DNA from: Agreia bicolorata
GTDB taxonomy: Bacteria; Actinomycetota; Actinomycetes; Actinomycetales; Microbacteriaceae
Direction: 5' to 3'
Assembly: GCF_000938265.1 (NCBI RefSeq)
Contig: NZ_JYFC01000008.1
Span: 62,001 to 126,000, forward strand
Length of the DNA: 64,000 nt
Made by a program: the position numbers and the translations under genes. Numbering within the stretch: the first letter of the stretch is position 1; every line of letters begins with the position of its first letter. The notes under the pieces are model-generated. The model ran no database searches. It worked only from the letters and a program-made list of their open reading frames with translations, and was not told the DNA's origin. This document shows positions 11,993 through 47,742 of this stretch, piece after piece.

Positions 11993-12424
11993 ATGTTCCT
12001 TGGCACGTACGCTCCCAAACTCGACGACAAAGGCCGAATCATCCTTCCGGCGAAATTCCGAGACGAACTCGAAGGCGGAGTCGTGCTGACGCGTGGTCAG
12101 GAGCACTGCGTCTACGTGTTCAGCTCGTCTGAGTTCGAAGAGCTCCACAACAAGATTCGGCAGGCTCCTGTCACCAGCAAGCAGGCCCGCGACTACATGC
12201 GCGTCTTCCTCTCCGGTGCCGATGCATCCGTGCCCGACAAGCAGAACCGCGTCAGCATTCCTGCCCACCTGCGCAGCTACGCCGGACTCGAACGCGAACT
12301 GGTCGTCATTGGCGCCGGATCGCGCGCCGAGATCTGGGACGCCGAAGCCTGGAACACCTATCTGGCCGCCCAGGAGGCCGCGTTCTCCGAGACCGACGAG
12401 GAGGTGATTCCCGGCCTCTTCTGA
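11993..12424 (+). CDS. mraZ: Transcriptional regulator MraZ
   Basis: DNA-binding regulator that heads the division and cell-wall cluster; it forms ring oligomers of AbrB/SpoVT-type folds. The 143-residue length is typical. Two copies of the family half-motif are visible: [22 protein letters not shown] at the N-terminus and [22 protein letters not shown] in the second half, each with the diagnostic D..(G/N)R pattern. The ATG at 11993 follows GGGGGAGAAAGGACG; a longer frame from 11918 would cover the operator and is rejected. Repeats at 11925-11950 are its presumed target. Confidence 0.96.
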
Positions 12425-12524
12425 TCGTTCCGCGTGACTCCCAGCCGTTCCTCGCCCTGACACACTTCCCCGGTGCCAGGTCGGAATGGATGGGGATCAG
12501 GCAGAACGAACAGGTCGATACACC

Positions 12525-44361: not shown

Positions 44362-44778
44362 ATGAGAGCGAATAAGAATCTCTTCTGGATCCTCGCGGTC
44401 TTCTGCCTCCTGCTCGCAGGGGTATACATCTTCTGGCACGTCCTCGACCAGGGAACGGTCGAATGGGTGGGCGCCCTCGGCATCGGCCTCGCCGGCGTTC
44501 TTTCTGCCTTCCTTGCCTTCTACCTGGGTCGCGTCTTCAGTGCCCAGGGTGGCGATCTGCCCGAAGATCGGCTTGACTCCGACATCGACGACGGCGACCC
44601 CGAGATGGGCTTCTACAGCCCATGGAGCTGGTGGCCCGTCATCCTTGCCGGGTCGGCCTCGCTGATGCTGCTGGGGTTCGCCGTCGGAACCTGGATCACC
44701 TTCATCGGCGTCGCACTAGTTCTGGTCGCGATCGTCGGCTGGACCTACGAGTACTACCGCGGGTACTTCGCCCGGTAG
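44362..44778 (+). CDS. ctaF: Cytochrome c oxidase subunit IV (actinobacterial CtaF)
   Basis: Small accessory subunit found in actinobacterial bc1-aa3 supercomplexes. The 138-residue protein has four hydrophobic helices (about 7-25, 35-53, 88-106 and 109-128), an acidic loop LPEDRLDSDIDDGDPEMGFYSPWSWWP-type segment between the second and third, and a basic C-terminus YEYYRGYFAR. It starts three bases after the ctaD stop. It probably stabilises the oxidase rather than carrying a redox centre. Confidence 0.92.
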   Translation: MRANKNLFWILAVFCLLLAGVYIFWHVLDQGTVEWVGALGIGLAGVLSAFLAFYLGRVFSAQGGDLPEDRLDSDIDDGDPEMGFYSPWSWWPVILAGSASLMLLGFAVGTWITFIGVALVLVAIVGWTYEYYRGYFAR

Positions 44779-44795
44779 ATTCGACTCCTGCACCA

Positions 44796-44825
44796 GGGCC
44801 CGTCTCGTTCGCTCGAGGCGGGCCC
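44796..44825. terminator. Bidirectional terminator between ctaF and trpS
   Basis: GGGCCCGTCTCG (44796-44807), 6-base loop, CGAGGCGGGCCC (44814-44825): a 12-bp stem with one G-U pair, between convergent genes. No T-tract longer than two follows, so efficiency is uncertain. Confidence 0.7.
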
Positions 44826-44853
44826 TTCGTGGTTGCAGGCTTCATCCGGCCGC

Positions 44854-45894
44854 TCAGTAGATTGTTCCCATCACCTCACGCACCTCCGCGAGCGTGACCT
44901 CGGCCGCCATGTTCGCAAGCCGATTGCCGTGATCGAGGATCGCGCGTGGCAGTTCGGCGTCTGCTGCGAACGTCTGCCGCCTCTTCCTCAGGGGCGCCAG
45001 GTAGTCGTTCACTGCTGTCGCTGTCGCGTCTTTCAGAGCGCTGCTGCCCCGGTCGCCGATCTCCTCGGCGAGCTCGACCTGGTCGATGCCCAGGCACAAA
45101 GACGCTGTCGTGAGCAGTGCTGAGACGCCGGGTCGATGCTCGGGGTCGAAACTGATCCGCCGGTCTTGATCTGTCTTTGTCCGGCGAATCGCGTCGACCG
45201 TCTCATCCGCTGTCATCGACAATGAGATCGCGTTGCCGTAGCTCTTCGACATCTTCCGGCCGTCGAGCCCAGGAACCTCGGGCGCCGAGGTGATGAGGGC
45301 ATCCGGCACGGGGAACACTTTGCCGTAGCGCTCGTTGAACCTGCGGGCGATCGAGCGGGTCATCTCCACGTGCGGAAGGTTGTCTTTGCCGACAGGCACA
45401 AGGTTGCCCTTGCAGAACAGGATGTCTGCAGCCTGGTGCACCGGATACGTCAGGAGCAGACCGCTCAAGGCACGCCCGGACGCGGCGAGCTCGGCCTTCA
45501 CCGTTGGATTGCGATGCAGTTCAGCTTCCGTGACCAGACTGAGAAATGGCAACACGAGCTGGTTCAGCGCGGGTACGGATGAGTGCGTGAAGATCGTGGT
45601 GCGCTCGGGGTCTATGCCCGCGGCGAGATAGTCGAGCACGGCACTGTACACGTTTTCGCGAACATGGGCCGTCGTTTCTCGATCGGTGATCACCTGGTAG
45701 TCGGCGAGCACAAGAAACATCTCGACGCCGGCTTGTTGCAGCCGCACCCGTTCCCTGATGGTGCCGAAGTAGTGCCCCAGGTGCAGCGGTCCGGTGGGCC
45801 GCTCGCCGGTCAGCACGCGAAAGCGCTCCGGATGCTTGGCCACGGCGGCCGAGATCTCCATCGAGCGTTCTGCGGTTGCGCTAAAGGAATCCAT
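44854..45894 (-). CDS. trpS: Tryptophanyl-tRNA synthetase, attenuator-controlled
   Basis: Charges tRNA-Trp. The 346-residue class I synthetase has the HIGH-type motif PLHLGHYFG (36-44) and K214MSKS218. Position 67, in DYQVIT, aligns with His43 of the Bacillus stearothermophilus enzyme (DQHAIT) and is Gln. It resembles the second bacterial TrpRS type, which includes Streptomyces auxiliary, indolmycin-resistant TrpRS1, more than the common type. The ATG at 45894 follows GGGAG by seven bases. Upstream lie a Trp-rich leader peptide and alternative hairpins (45938-46021), so expression should respond to tRNA-Trp charging. Whether another trpS exists elsewhere is unknown. Confidence 0.95.
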   Translation of the reverse strand: MDSFSATAERSMEISAAVAKHPERFRVLTGERPTGPLHLGHYFGTIRERVRLQQAGVEMFLVLADYQVITDRETTAHVRENVYSAVLDYLAAGIDPERTTIFTHSSVPALNQLVLPFLSLVTEAELHRNPTVKAELAASGRALSGLLLTYPVHQAADILFCKGNLVPVGKDNLPHVEMTRSIARRFNERYGKVFPVPDALITSAPEVPGLDGRKMSKSYGNAISLSMTADETVDAIRRTKTDQDRRISFDPEHRPGVSALLTTASLCLGIDQVELAEEIGDRGSSALKDATATAVNDYLAPLRKRRQTFAADAELPRAILDHGNRLANMAAEVTLAEVREVMGTIY

Positions 45895-45900
45895 GTGTAT

Positions 45901-45917
45901 CTCCCGATTTGTGGGAG
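45901..45917 (-). promoter_or_regulatory. trpS: Small hairpin covering the trpS ribosome-binding site
   Basis: On the minus strand CTCCC (45917-45913) can pair with GGGAG (45905-45901), the Shine-Dalgarno of trpS, across a 7-base loop. The stem is only five pairs, so this is at most a modest translational control added to the attenuator. Confidence 0.35.
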
Positions 45918-45937
45918 CCGCACGGAGTACTCGGGTC

Positions 45938-45966
45938 GTTCACGAGCTGCCGCGCAGCCCGTGAAC
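45938..45966 (-). terminator. trpS: Attenuator terminator hairpin (segments 3:4) of trpS
   Basis: On the minus strand GTTCACGGGCTGC (45966-45954) pairs with GCAGCTCGTGAAC (45950-45938) across the loop GCG, a 13-bp stem with one G-U pair. It lies between the leader peptide stop and the trpS ribosome-binding site. The 5' arm ends in GGCTGC, which can pair instead with the free GCAGCC at 45983-45978, so the terminator and antiterminator are mutually exclusive. No T-tract follows, as is common in actinobacteria. Confidence 0.75.
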
Positions 45967-45969
45967 ATG

Positions 45970-46016
45970 CTTCAACCGGCTGCTATCGCAGCCACCACCA
46001 TGCGGATTGGTTGAAG
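45970..46016 (-). promoter_or_regulatory. trpS: Attenuator pause hairpin (segments 1:2) of trpS
   Basis: On the minus strand CTTCAACC (46016-46009) is the exact complement of GGTTGAAG (45977-45970), and GGCTGC (45993-45988) of GCAGCC (45983-45978) around a GATA loop. The Trp codons lie inside segment 1, so a ribosome stalled there would block this pairing and free segment 2 for segment 3. Confidence 0.7.
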
Positions 46017-46021
46017 TGCAT
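45983..46021 (-). CDS. Trp-rich leader peptide of the trpS attenuator
   Basis: Thirteen codons read MHFNQSAWWWLR followed by TAG. Three consecutive TGG codons occupy 46000-45992. Three adjacent Trp codons in a 12-residue frame directly ahead of a tryptophanyl-tRNA synthetase gene, and overlapping complementary RNA segments, is the classic form of a ribosome-mediated attenuation leader. There is no Shine-Dalgarno; TATTCT at 46034-46029 ends seven bases before the ATG, so the transcript probably starts at the ATG and the peptide is translated from a leaderless message. In Streptomyces coelicolor the auxiliary trpRS1 gene is known to be controlled this way. Confidence 0.85.
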   Translation of the reverse strand: MHFNQSAWWWLR

Positions 46022-46028
46022 AGAGGGG

Positions 46029-46034
46029 AGAATA
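46029..46034 (-). promoter_or_regulatory. trpS: -10 element of the trpS leader promoter
   Basis: TATTCT on the minus strand lies seven bases before the leader peptide ATG. The corresponding -35 position falls inside the qcrB terminator stem (46040-46081), and no good -35 hexamer is visible there. Confidence 0.5.
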
Positions 46035-46039
46035 CCAAA

Positions 46040-46081
46040 AGATCCGCCGGGCGGTCTCGTTGGAGAGAGCCCGACGGATCT
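46040..46081 (-). terminator. Terminator of the qcrCAB operon
   Basis: On the minus strand AGATCCGTCGGGC (46081-46069) pairs with GCCCGGCGGATCT (46052-46040) with one G-U pair, the intervening loop can form a further TCTC/GAGA pair, and TTT follows directly. It begins 20 bases after the qcrB stop and separates the operon from the trpS attenuator promoter. Confidence 0.85.
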
Positions 46082-46101
46082 GTATGCCGCGCGTACTGGG
46101 G

Positions 46102-47742
46102 TTAGTGGTGACCGCCGCGCTCGATCTCCTTCGGGCTGACCGGCGCGATGCGGTCCTCGAAGAACCACCGCGACATTCCTGCACGGAAGCGCTGCACGGC
46201 GGTGATCTTGCCCTGTGCGTTCGGACGGATCATCAGAGGCTGGTAGTCGTTGTAGTCGACCAGCTTCCAGCGCTCGTACTCGTCGACAGGCTGGTGCACC
46301 TCGATGTACTCACCGCCCGGGAGTCGCACGATGCGTCCTGATTCGAAGCCGTGAAGGGCGATCTCGCGATCCTTCTTCTGCAGGGCGAGGCAGACGCGCT
46401 TCGTCACGAGATATCCGATGATCGGGCCGAGGACGAGCAGAGCCTGGTTCACGTGGATCACGCCCTCGATCGACAGCTGGAAGTGCGTGGCGATGAGGTC
46501 GGAGCTCGCCGCCCCCCAGAGGGCGGCGTAGAACAGAACTCCGGCGACACCGATCGCTGTGCGGGTCGGCGCGTTACGCGGACGGTCGAGCAGGTGGTGC
46601 TCGCGCTTGTCACCGGTGATCCAGGCCTCGATGAACGGGTACACGAGGACTGCAACGATCAGGCCGGTCAGGATGAGCACCGGGATGATGATGTTGAACG
46701 ACCAGGTGCGGTTCCACAGTTCGAATTCGAGTCCCGGCGGAATCAGTCGCAAAGCGCCGTCGGCGAATCCGATGTACCAGTCGGGCTGCGTTCCTGCAGA
46801 GACCGGGGACGGGTCATAGGGCCCATAGTTCCAGATGGGGTTGATCGTGAAGAACGTGCCCATCAGGGCGATGACGCCGAAGACGATGAAGAAGAAGCCG
46901 CCAGCCTTGGCAGCGAACATCGGCAGGATGGGGGAGCCGACCACGTTGTCCTTGGTCTGGCCGGGGCCGGACCACTGAGTGTGCTTGTGCACGACGACGA
47001 AGACGAGGTGCAGAGCGAGCATAACGGCGAGGATCGCGGGAAGCAGCAGAATGTGCAGCGAATACAGTCGGCCGACGATGTCTGTTCCGGGGAACTCGCC
47101 GCCGAAGAGCAGGAACGAGATCCAGGTTCCGACGACTGGAAGACCCTTGATGAGGCCGTCGATGATGCGAAGGCCGTTACCCGAGAGGAGATCGTCGGGA
47201 AGCGAATATCCCGTGAATCCCTCGGCGAGAGCGAGGATGAACAGGATGAAACCGATGACCCAGTTCAACTCACGCGGCTTGCGGAACGCGCCGGTGAAGT
47301 AGATGCGCAGCATGTGGATGCCGATGGCCGCGATGAACGTCAGAGCCGCCCAGTGGTGGATCTGGCGGATGAGAAGACCACCGCGAACGTCGAATGAGAT
47401 GTTGAGCGTCGACGACATGGCGGTGGACATCTCGACGCCCTTGAGGGGAACGTACGAGCCGTTGTAGACGACCTCGGCCATGGACGCCTGGAAGAAGAAC
47501 GTGAGGAACGTGCCCGTCAAGAGGATGACGACGAAGCTGTAGAGAGCGACCTCACCGAGCATGAATGACCAGTGGTCGGGGAAGATCTTTCGGCCGAACT
47601 CTTTGACGACGCCCGAGATGCTGGTGCGCTCGTCGATGTAGTTGGCGGCAGCCTCGGTGAAGCGGCTCGTGCTGCTGCGCTGCGAAGACGACTGTGTCGG
47701 GGCCGGTGCGGGCGCTGTGTCCGGCGTGGTCACTGTACTCAT
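46102..47742 (-). CDS. qcrB: Cytochrome bc1 complex cytochrome b subunit
   Basis: Quinol-oxidising membrane subunit of complex III. The 546-residue protein carries a low-complexity N-terminus, then eight or more helices. b-type haem ligands lie in RQIHHWAALTFIAAIGIHMLRIYF and SLHILLLPAILAVMLALHLVFVVVHKH. The quinol-site region is GYSLPDDLLSG, and an extended C-terminal cytoplasmic tail (about 130 residues with RVCLALQKKDREIALHGFE) is typical of actinobacteria. It overlaps qcrA by four bases and ends the operon. Confidence 0.96.
   Translation of the reverse strand: MSTVTTPDTAPAPAPTQSSSQRSSTSRFTEAAANYIDERTSISGVVKEFGRKIFPDHWSFMLGEVALYSFVVILLTGTFLTFFFQASMAEVVYNGSYVPLKGVEMSTAMSSTLNISFDVRGGLLIRQIHHWAALTFIAAIGIHMLRIYFTGAFRKPRELNWVIGFILFILALAEGFTGYSLPDDLLSGNGLRIIDGLIKGLPVVGTWISFLLFGGEFPGTDIVGRLYSLHILLLPAILAVMLALHLVFVVVHKHTQWSGPGQTKDNVVGSPILPMFAAKAGGFFFIVFGVIALMGTFFTINPIWNYGPYDPSPVSAGTQPDWYIGFADGALRLIPPGLEFELWNRTWSFNIIIPVLILTGLIVAVLVYPFIEAWITGDKREHHLLDRPRNAPTRTAIGVAGVLFYAALWGAASSDLIATHFQLSIEGVIHVNQALLVLGPIIGYLVTKRVCLALQKKDREIALHGFESGRIVRLPGGEYIEVHQPVDEYERWKLVDYNDYQPLMIRPNAQGKITAVQRFRAGMSRWFFEDRIAPVSPKEIERGGHH

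Follow-up and report, generated by a model that had tools for sequence, protein, structure and literature searches.

A tryptophanyl-tRNA synthetase gene, trpS, is placed together with a short leader frame between qcrB and ctaF in the 64,000-nucleotide stretch of Agreia bicolorata DNA analysed here (the window). The leader frame carries three consecutive Trp codons, and the locus therefore raises the question of whether its translation governs the synthetase gene behind it and, if so, at which step. A first-pass annotation had seen in it a ribosome-mediated transcription attenuator of the trp operon kind. Our answer, in which we have considerable confidence, is a ribosome-mediated leader that senses Trp-tRNA and makes an auxiliary trpS inducible by shortage of charged tRNA-Trp; the step at which it acts is treated separately, and more tentatively.

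The leader, its RNA segments and the gene that follows

The leader peptide frame, MHFNQSAWWWLR, is read on the minus strand (46021-45983), upstream of trpS (start 45894). Its codons are ATG (46021-46019), CAC TTC AAC CAA TCC GCA TGG TGG TGG CTG CGA and TAG (45985-45983), the three Trp codons, which would be the regulatory ones, occupying 45992-46000. This 12-residue frame is as first described, except that the spacing from its stop codon to the trpS ATG (45894) is 88 nt and not 90. Upstream, a -10 box (TATTCT, 46029-46034, minus strand) stands 7 nt before the leader ATG. The box is kept in the family: 78 of 89 members have a TANNNT sequence ending 5–9 nt upstream of their leader start, where shuffles would give 2.4, so that the leaders are probably translated from leaderless mRNA, with the transcript starting at the AUG. 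No ribosome binding site is visible before the window leader, and a Shine-Dalgarno-like 4-mer precedes 8 of the 89 leaders. Among the 11 leaders without a -10 box, at least one (L122) has a fitting upstream in-frame start.

Five RNA segments can be laid out along the minus strand. Segment 1 (45988-46016) is made up of CTTCAACC (46016-46009) and GGCTGC (45993-45988), and by folding and alignment it pairs with segment 2 (45970-45983), which consists of GCAGCC (45983-45978) and GGTTGAAG (45977-45970); helix 1:2 has 6 inner and 8 outer pairs. Segment 2 can pair instead with segment 3 (GTTCACGGGCTGC, 45954-45966) through GCAGCC and GGCTGC, and segment 3 in turn can form a terminator-like hairpin of 13 pairs, one of them G-U, with segment 4 (GCAGCTCGTGAAC, 45938-45950). 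The TGG-TGG-TGG leader and the alternatives 1:2, 2:3 and 3:4 were all located in the window as the first-pass annotation had described them. Folding, which it had suggested as a check, returned mutually exclusive helices; the 97-nt leader (45925-46021) folds at −48.1 kcal/mol versus −32.1 ± 3.2 kcal/mol for shuffled sequences (z = −5.04), and 0 of 200 shuffles were as stable. Further downstream, segment 5 (CCGTGCGGCTC, 45915-45925), recognized by alignment and shuffles, overlaps the anti-Shine-Dalgarno sequence and is complementary to GGGCTGCGCGG (45960-45950; part of segment 3, its loop and one base) over 11 pairs, of which 3 are G-U. The Shine-Dalgarno sequence of trpS itself is covered by a predicted hairpin (45901-45917) between CTCCC (45917-45913) and GGGAG (45905-45901).

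Taken alone, TGGTGGTGG is not unusual (83 genome copies versus 81 of a reversed control pattern) and is uninformative, so the case for the leader rests on arrangement and conservation. Covariance models of the T-box (at the gathering threshold) and of the Rfam Trp leader family gave no match within the 64-kb window, and T-box identity and the Rfam leader families were rejected for lack of such a match. At E ≤ 1 the sole Rfam match in 45850-46110 was Histone3 (E = 0.003), which was put down to chance, being below the cut-off and on the opposite strand. The mraW RNA motif (RF01746) was recorded elsewhere in the window, at 12419-12519 on the plus strand (64.5 bits).

The gene behind the leader, trpS (44854-45894, minus strand), encodes a 346 amino acid protein that matches TIGR00233 (241.6 bits) and whose nearest solved-structure sequences are the tryptophanyl-tRNA synthetases 1yi8 and 2a4m (2a4m under the name TrpRS II). 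The genome holds another trpS (G000:C15:230552-231535), which is of housekeeping type; the two copies are 36–38% identical and fall in separate clades of the tree. A quick tree of 177 proteins puts the window copy in a clade of 30 members, 29 of them labelled as having a leader. Judged by the family match, the second copy and the tree, the window trpS is an auxiliary, TrpRS1-like copy beside a housekeeping-type trpS. At E ≤ 1e-80 this copy type is found in 17 of 398 genomes of the family, 164 of 396 of the order and 46 of 394 of the class. That trpS is an auxiliary copy, that the leader is probably leaderless and that the trpS Shine-Dalgarno sequence is predicted to be sequestered had all been missed in the first-pass annotation.

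Conservation, mobility and copy number

Auxiliary-type trpS loci were defined as those at least 45% identical to the window protein, and 222 of them have 200 nt or more of upstream DNA. A WW leader precedes the gene in 86 of the 222, versus 1 of 222 on the reverse strand. The 86 include one locus (L256) where WW lies inside a longer frame and was judged chance, count one gene twice (overlapping loci L011 and L040) and miss both L078, in which a MTHSGMWWWPIDGH frame is present, and single-Trp leaders. More distant trpS loci (15 from the same order and 22 from other phyla) had a WW frame in 1 of 37 cases, this one (L119) being among the 22; none of the 15 from the window's order had one.

Twenty-eight relatives, chosen as alignable from about 90 leader-bearing loci, were aligned. 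At least two Trp codons are kept in 28 of 28. In helix 1:2 the inner pairs are present in 100% of 168 cells (the outer ones, poorly conserved, in 67.9% and 62.9%), helix 2:3 pairs in 100% of 168 cells, and helix 3:4 in 86.0% of 363 cells, where 22 cells changed on both sides versus 11.6 in shuffles (0 of 500 as high). Loss of the Trp codons or of the pairing in close relatives, named at the outset as the finding that would speak against an attenuator, was looked for in these 28 and did not appear. In two relatives (L122 and L134) the third Trp codon is CGG and the GGCTGC of segment 1 is still kept, and in L131 the middle Trp codon is lost, which argues that codons and helix are constrained separately. 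When the window's own genome was searched with a covariance model built from the 28 leaders, one strong site came up, the window leader (E = 5.8e-46). Five weaker matches (E from 0.0014 to 0.72) were taken as chance; L268 to L270 were read and contain no Trp-run leader.

The place of the leader and gene in the chromosome is shared by few relatives. An inverted repeat, GATCCGTCGGGC/GCCCGGCGGATC, followed by TTTT (46037-46080, minus strand), lies upstream of the leader promoter and after qcrB, whose stop is at 46102. It is probably the terminator of qcrB and would then set trpS apart from the qcr operon; a similar repeat with a T-run is found at the equivalent place in L004, L005 and L011. Among 27 loci, the same three share the qcrB/ctaF place (qcrB 98.6–99.3% identical) and two more diverged ones (L008 and L125) share it as well; the other 22 have no qcrB/ctaF neighbours within the available flanking DNA. 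In one of the relatives at this place (L011/L040; G003:C3:731381-732289) the trpS matches residues 1–259 and 305–346 in one open frame; with about 45 residues missing it may be degenerate despite an intact leader. G005 contains an additional trpS fragment with two stop codons (C42:20606-20752).

Plasmids A and B of Microbacterium sp. No. 7 carry an identical 3911-bp unit, leader-trpS-istB-istA, between different flanks (L121:4903-8813 and L281:3775-7685). Its ends form imperfect terminal inverted repeats (by eye), one of its proteins matches the IstB family and no clear target-site duplication was seen at either plasmid unit; in L123 both element ends and trpS are present, with most of istB and istA missing. 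On these features the unit seems to be an IS21-family element with the attenuated trpS as a passenger. Window and plasmid copy are similar at the DNA level from the leader ATG (46021) through the end of trpS, so that leader and gene look like one cassette. A Trp leader is also present in 9 of 10 PLSDB records with a relative at E ≤ 1e-60 (some of the ten are chromosome-sized), the one without being from Collinsella. A protein encoded in the record of an unannotated fecal phage (H14, MT835538.1:17187-18233) is 58.5% identical to the window TrpRS, the closest among the matches listed (20 of 32 phage-record matches).

The leader is associated with the presence of a second trpS. With trpS copies counted in 160 genomes, a WW leader precedes 73 of the loci whose genome has two copies and 2 of those with one, and is missing from 16 and 70 loci, respectively (161 loci in all; Fisher P = 4e-27, a value that ignores ancestry). 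For this table L256 and L119 were removed, L160 was added by hand and 4 of 165 loci (L156-L159), lacking a copy count, were dropped. Read by eye, the 16 two-copy loci comprise 8 with fewer or interrupted Trp codons (L017, L131, L132, L162, L163, L219, L237 and L238), one with WW past the scanned range (L251), five with no leader in the upstream DNA (L015, L226, L229, L255 and L218) and two that are ambiguous (L171 and L227). The one-copy loci with a leader are L160, whose genome is in 190 contigs, and L167. On the tree the leader label requires 9 changes, 6 of them forced by starred branches, versus 51 in shuffles, and 5 independent pairs gave on average 3.3 with the trend and 0.1 against, which is not significant. 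For the label, single-Trp leaders were added by eye and L078 was entered as 'no' despite its leader frame; the tree and the comparison of independent pairs took only loci below L187 of suitable length, with seven loci omitted by name. It appears that the association of the leader with a second trpS comes largely from shared ancestry.

Two genomes are worth describing for their copies. In G100 (2.1 Mb) the sole trpS found (L128) is auxiliary-type, falls inside the leader clade and has no leader upstream of 2532; it lies close behind an upstream gene, and the attenuator was apparently lost when the auxiliary copy became the sole enzyme. G655 has two auxiliary-type trpS genes and no other trpS was found there: one (L134) has a leader with WWR and the other (L218) has none, as is the case for sole copies in related genomes.

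A proposed path from stalled ribosome to trpS expression

What has been observed so far is the layout of the leader and its conservation, together with the Trp codons, the mutually exclusive helices and a second trpS in the genome. The account that follows infers where transcription starts, that the ribosome stalls, which way trpS responds and at which step. The transcript would probably begin at the leader AUG. When Trp-tRNA is ample, the ribosome would pass UGG UGG UGG, reach the stop codon and cover segment 2, allowing 3:4 to form; trpS would be kept low by 3:4 acting as a U-less, weak or factor-assisted terminator, and perhaps also by the enclosure of its Shine-Dalgarno sequence in a hairpin of its own. 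When charged tRNA-Trp is scarce, through starvation or inhibition of the housekeeping TrpRS, a ribosome stalled on the Trp codons would mask segment 1, segment 2 would pair with segment 3, 3:4 would be pre-empted and trpS would be expressed.

The 13-bp stem of the proposed terminator is present in the window, whereas the U-tract expected of such a terminator is absent (the bases after the stem are GACCCGAGTACTCC), and a terminator scan of 44700-46400 returned 0 sites. Across the family, at least 4 U within 8 nt after the picked hairpin are found in 17 of 90 members and not in the other 73, a count in which the hairpin finder picked the wrong hairpin in at least L215, L221, L228, L084 and L087 (by eye). 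The trp-attenuator logic read on trpS in the first-pass annotation was thus borne out for the leader and for the exclusive helices, both conserved in relatives, but not for termination at 3:4. Without a U-tract and with 0 scan sites, membership of the strict transcriptional attenuator class is not claimed; the leader would work like such an attenuator.

The closed Shine-Dalgarno sequence raises a further point: since it is predicted to be sequestered, the output may be partly or wholly translational. It is possible, although short of likely, that the output is a dual switch in which segment 5 sets translation besides 3:4, stalling controlling both transcription and trpS initiation; no firmer is the detail that segment 5 either helps to close the start codon of trpS and its Shine-Dalgarno sequence, or opens both by pairing with segment 3 and its loop. 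In the window the predicted openness of the Shine-Dalgarno sequence is 0.003. Over 85 loci in 43 genus groups, median accessibility was 0.20 versus 0.33 for upstream-shuffled sequences (Wilcoxon P = 2.6e-9), and 16 of the 43 groups were less accessible than shuffles at P ≤ 0.05. Of 90 loci, 85 were used (L123 and L010 had no start, L236 had a bad start, and L221 and L167 were out of limits); 33 of the 43 groups are genus handles and the remaining 10 are named-record loci taken singly, some of which share a genus. Because trpS starts were chosen by their Shine-Dalgarno motif, the count of 88 of 90 loci with such a motif is circular and was not used.

Complementarity of segment 3 to segment 5 also exceeds chance. 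Among the 28 aligned relatives, 98.0% of 305 cells of 3:5 pair, loop columns included, versus at most 50.0% in slid controls. Segment 3 with its loop was complementary to the downstream region beyond shuffles (P ≤ 0.05) in 25 of 43 genus groups (at the same threshold, 3:5 had been seen in 46 of 90 loci and in 23 of 43 groups in earlier runs); among the controls, segment 4 exceeded shuffles in 3 groups, segment 2 in 5 and segment 1 in 7, and the 5' arm of segment 3 without the loop did so in 3. The partners vary by lineage, GGGCUGCACGG with CCGUGUAGCUC in one case and GGCCGCCGCG with CGCGGUGGCC in another. Segment 5 pairs with the Shine-Dalgarno and start region more than other windows do (0.45 versus 0.30, 41 groups, P = 0.011), and the Shine-Dalgarno sequence is on average more open with segment 5 masked than with other windows masked (Wilcoxon P = 0.010). 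With 3:5 forced, openness in the window rises to 0.33–0.58; with 3:4 forced it stays at 0.003. Rows with 3:4 forbidden were left out, as that constraint took every pair away from the bases concerned.

Other results weigh against two-level control. The rank test on masking did not reach significance (P = 0.07), swapping partners across lineages gave only modest support, with 8 of 43 groups in which the own partner outranked 95% of the foreign ones, the changes in 3:5 are mostly one-sided (3 cells changed on both sides), and some members (L165, L174 and L164) are without 3:5. With a ribosome on the Trp codons, moreover, the window energies are −41.0 kcal/mol for 3:4, −37.4 kcal/mol for 2:3 and −32.4 kcal/mol for 3:5, which makes 3:5 the least stable option, and the 2:3 state is computed to leave the Shine-Dalgarno sequence closed. 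Folding energies take account neither of the order in which the RNA is made nor of ribosomes in motion, so a translational layer is possible; the conserved extra pairings suggest that one has been added, even if the energies do not favour it.

Classical transcription attenuation, with 3:4 as the terminator and with no role for the Shine-Dalgarno hairpin or segment 5, is likewise a reading that we can entertain only with reserve. It has the complete 1:2, 2:3, 3:4 logic in its favour, it fits the 17 members with at least 4 U after the hairpin, and attenuation of trpRS1 in Streptomyces coelicolor is reportedly transcriptional, as the title of Vecchione and Sello 2010 has it. Against it, the U-tract is missing from the window and, by that count, from 73 of 90 members, and both Shine-Dalgarno sequestration and 3:5 complementarity go beyond chance.

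Purely translational, erm-like attenuation, where 3:4 would not terminate and the stall would only open the trpS start, is unlikely. The missing U-tract and the sequestered Shine-Dalgarno sequence would suit it, but with a ribosome placed on the Trp codons the computed 2:3 fold keeps that sequence closed, and termination without a U-rich stretch at the trpS leader of Streptomyces lividans is stated from RNA-seq in passages of PMC8079986. An erm-like 4:5 pairing found no support in the control count for segment 4 against the downstream region (3 of 43 groups). Chance, that is a short three-TGG frame in a GC-rich, hairpin-prone spacer, is highly improbable and was rejected: TGGTGGTGG is indeed common in the genome, but the reverse-strand control (1 of 222 versus 86 of 222), the folding z-score of −5.0 and conservation in plasmid copies and other families all speak against it.

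The fullest form of the reading that we prefer, a Trp-tRNA-sensing leader, is offered tentatively: a transferable, self-contained dual switch in which leader, five segments and trpS would travel as one cassette, also inside the plasmid IS21-family element, and in which the stall would control read-through of the U-less hairpin as well as trpS translation, the latter through segment 5 contesting segment 3 and the Shine-Dalgarno sequence.

Relation to known leaders and biological meaning

T-box leaders sense uncharged tRNA upstream of aminoacyl-tRNA synthetase genes; unlike them, the window leader would sense through translation of a leader peptide, and no T-box match was found at the site. In erm translational attenuators, leader stalling caused by a drug is tied to a sequestered downstream start site. 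The window resembles them in the predicted closure of the start site in the uninduced state (openness 0.003 and accessibility below shuffles over 43 groups), but the stall would depend on cognate Trp codons and not on a drug, and the Shine-Dalgarno sequence opens only with 3:5 forced.

The closest likeness is to Streptomyces. Candidate attenuators before trpS are described there in passages of PMC1262725, including that of trpS2 in S. avermitilis, and the window shares with them a short leader with one or more Trp codons before trpS and hairpins after it; such passages on those Streptomyces leaders make no mention of Shine-Dalgarno sequestration or of a segment 5. TrpL2 of S. lividans, according to portions of PMC8079986, is leaderless, has two hairpins, no U-rich stretch and one Trp codon. 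The probable leaderless start and the missing U-rich stretch are common to both, whereas the window leader has three Trp codons and belongs to another lineage and another locus. The trp operon attenuators of Corynebacterium and Streptomyces, which control biosynthesis and are said in PMC1262725, as excerpted, to have poly-U tracts, share the 1:2, 2:3, 3:4 logic and tandem UGG codons with the window; they differ from it in that the window leader would control a tRNA synthetase and has no poly-U. Among the matches listed in open-licence literature, none described the leader-trpS arrangement in Micrococcales, trpS under Shine-Dalgarno control or an IS21 element with a tRNA synthetase as passenger, which is weak evidence of absence.

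A trpS leader switch of the Streptomyces type is thus already known, and turns out here to be a widespread, transferable cassette with added conserved pairings. Peptide-leader control of auxiliary trpS genes accordingly extends from the few Streptomyces cases described to a broad actinobacterial design that crosses families and plasmids. For the organism, a spare TrpRS induced by just the shortage brought about when its housekeeping enzyme is inhibited would be an economical form of inducible tolerance, an expectation drawn from Streptomyces relatives of this enzyme type, whose TrpRS1 confers indolmycin resistance and is induced by indolmycin (PMC9437257, as excerpted). As the leader is absent from 70 of 72 loci of one-trpS genomes, genomes like G100 offer a natural experiment. 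Finally, segment 5 and the sequestered start provide a testable case of two-level attenuation without a U-tract, which bears on how attenuation may work in high-GC genomes.
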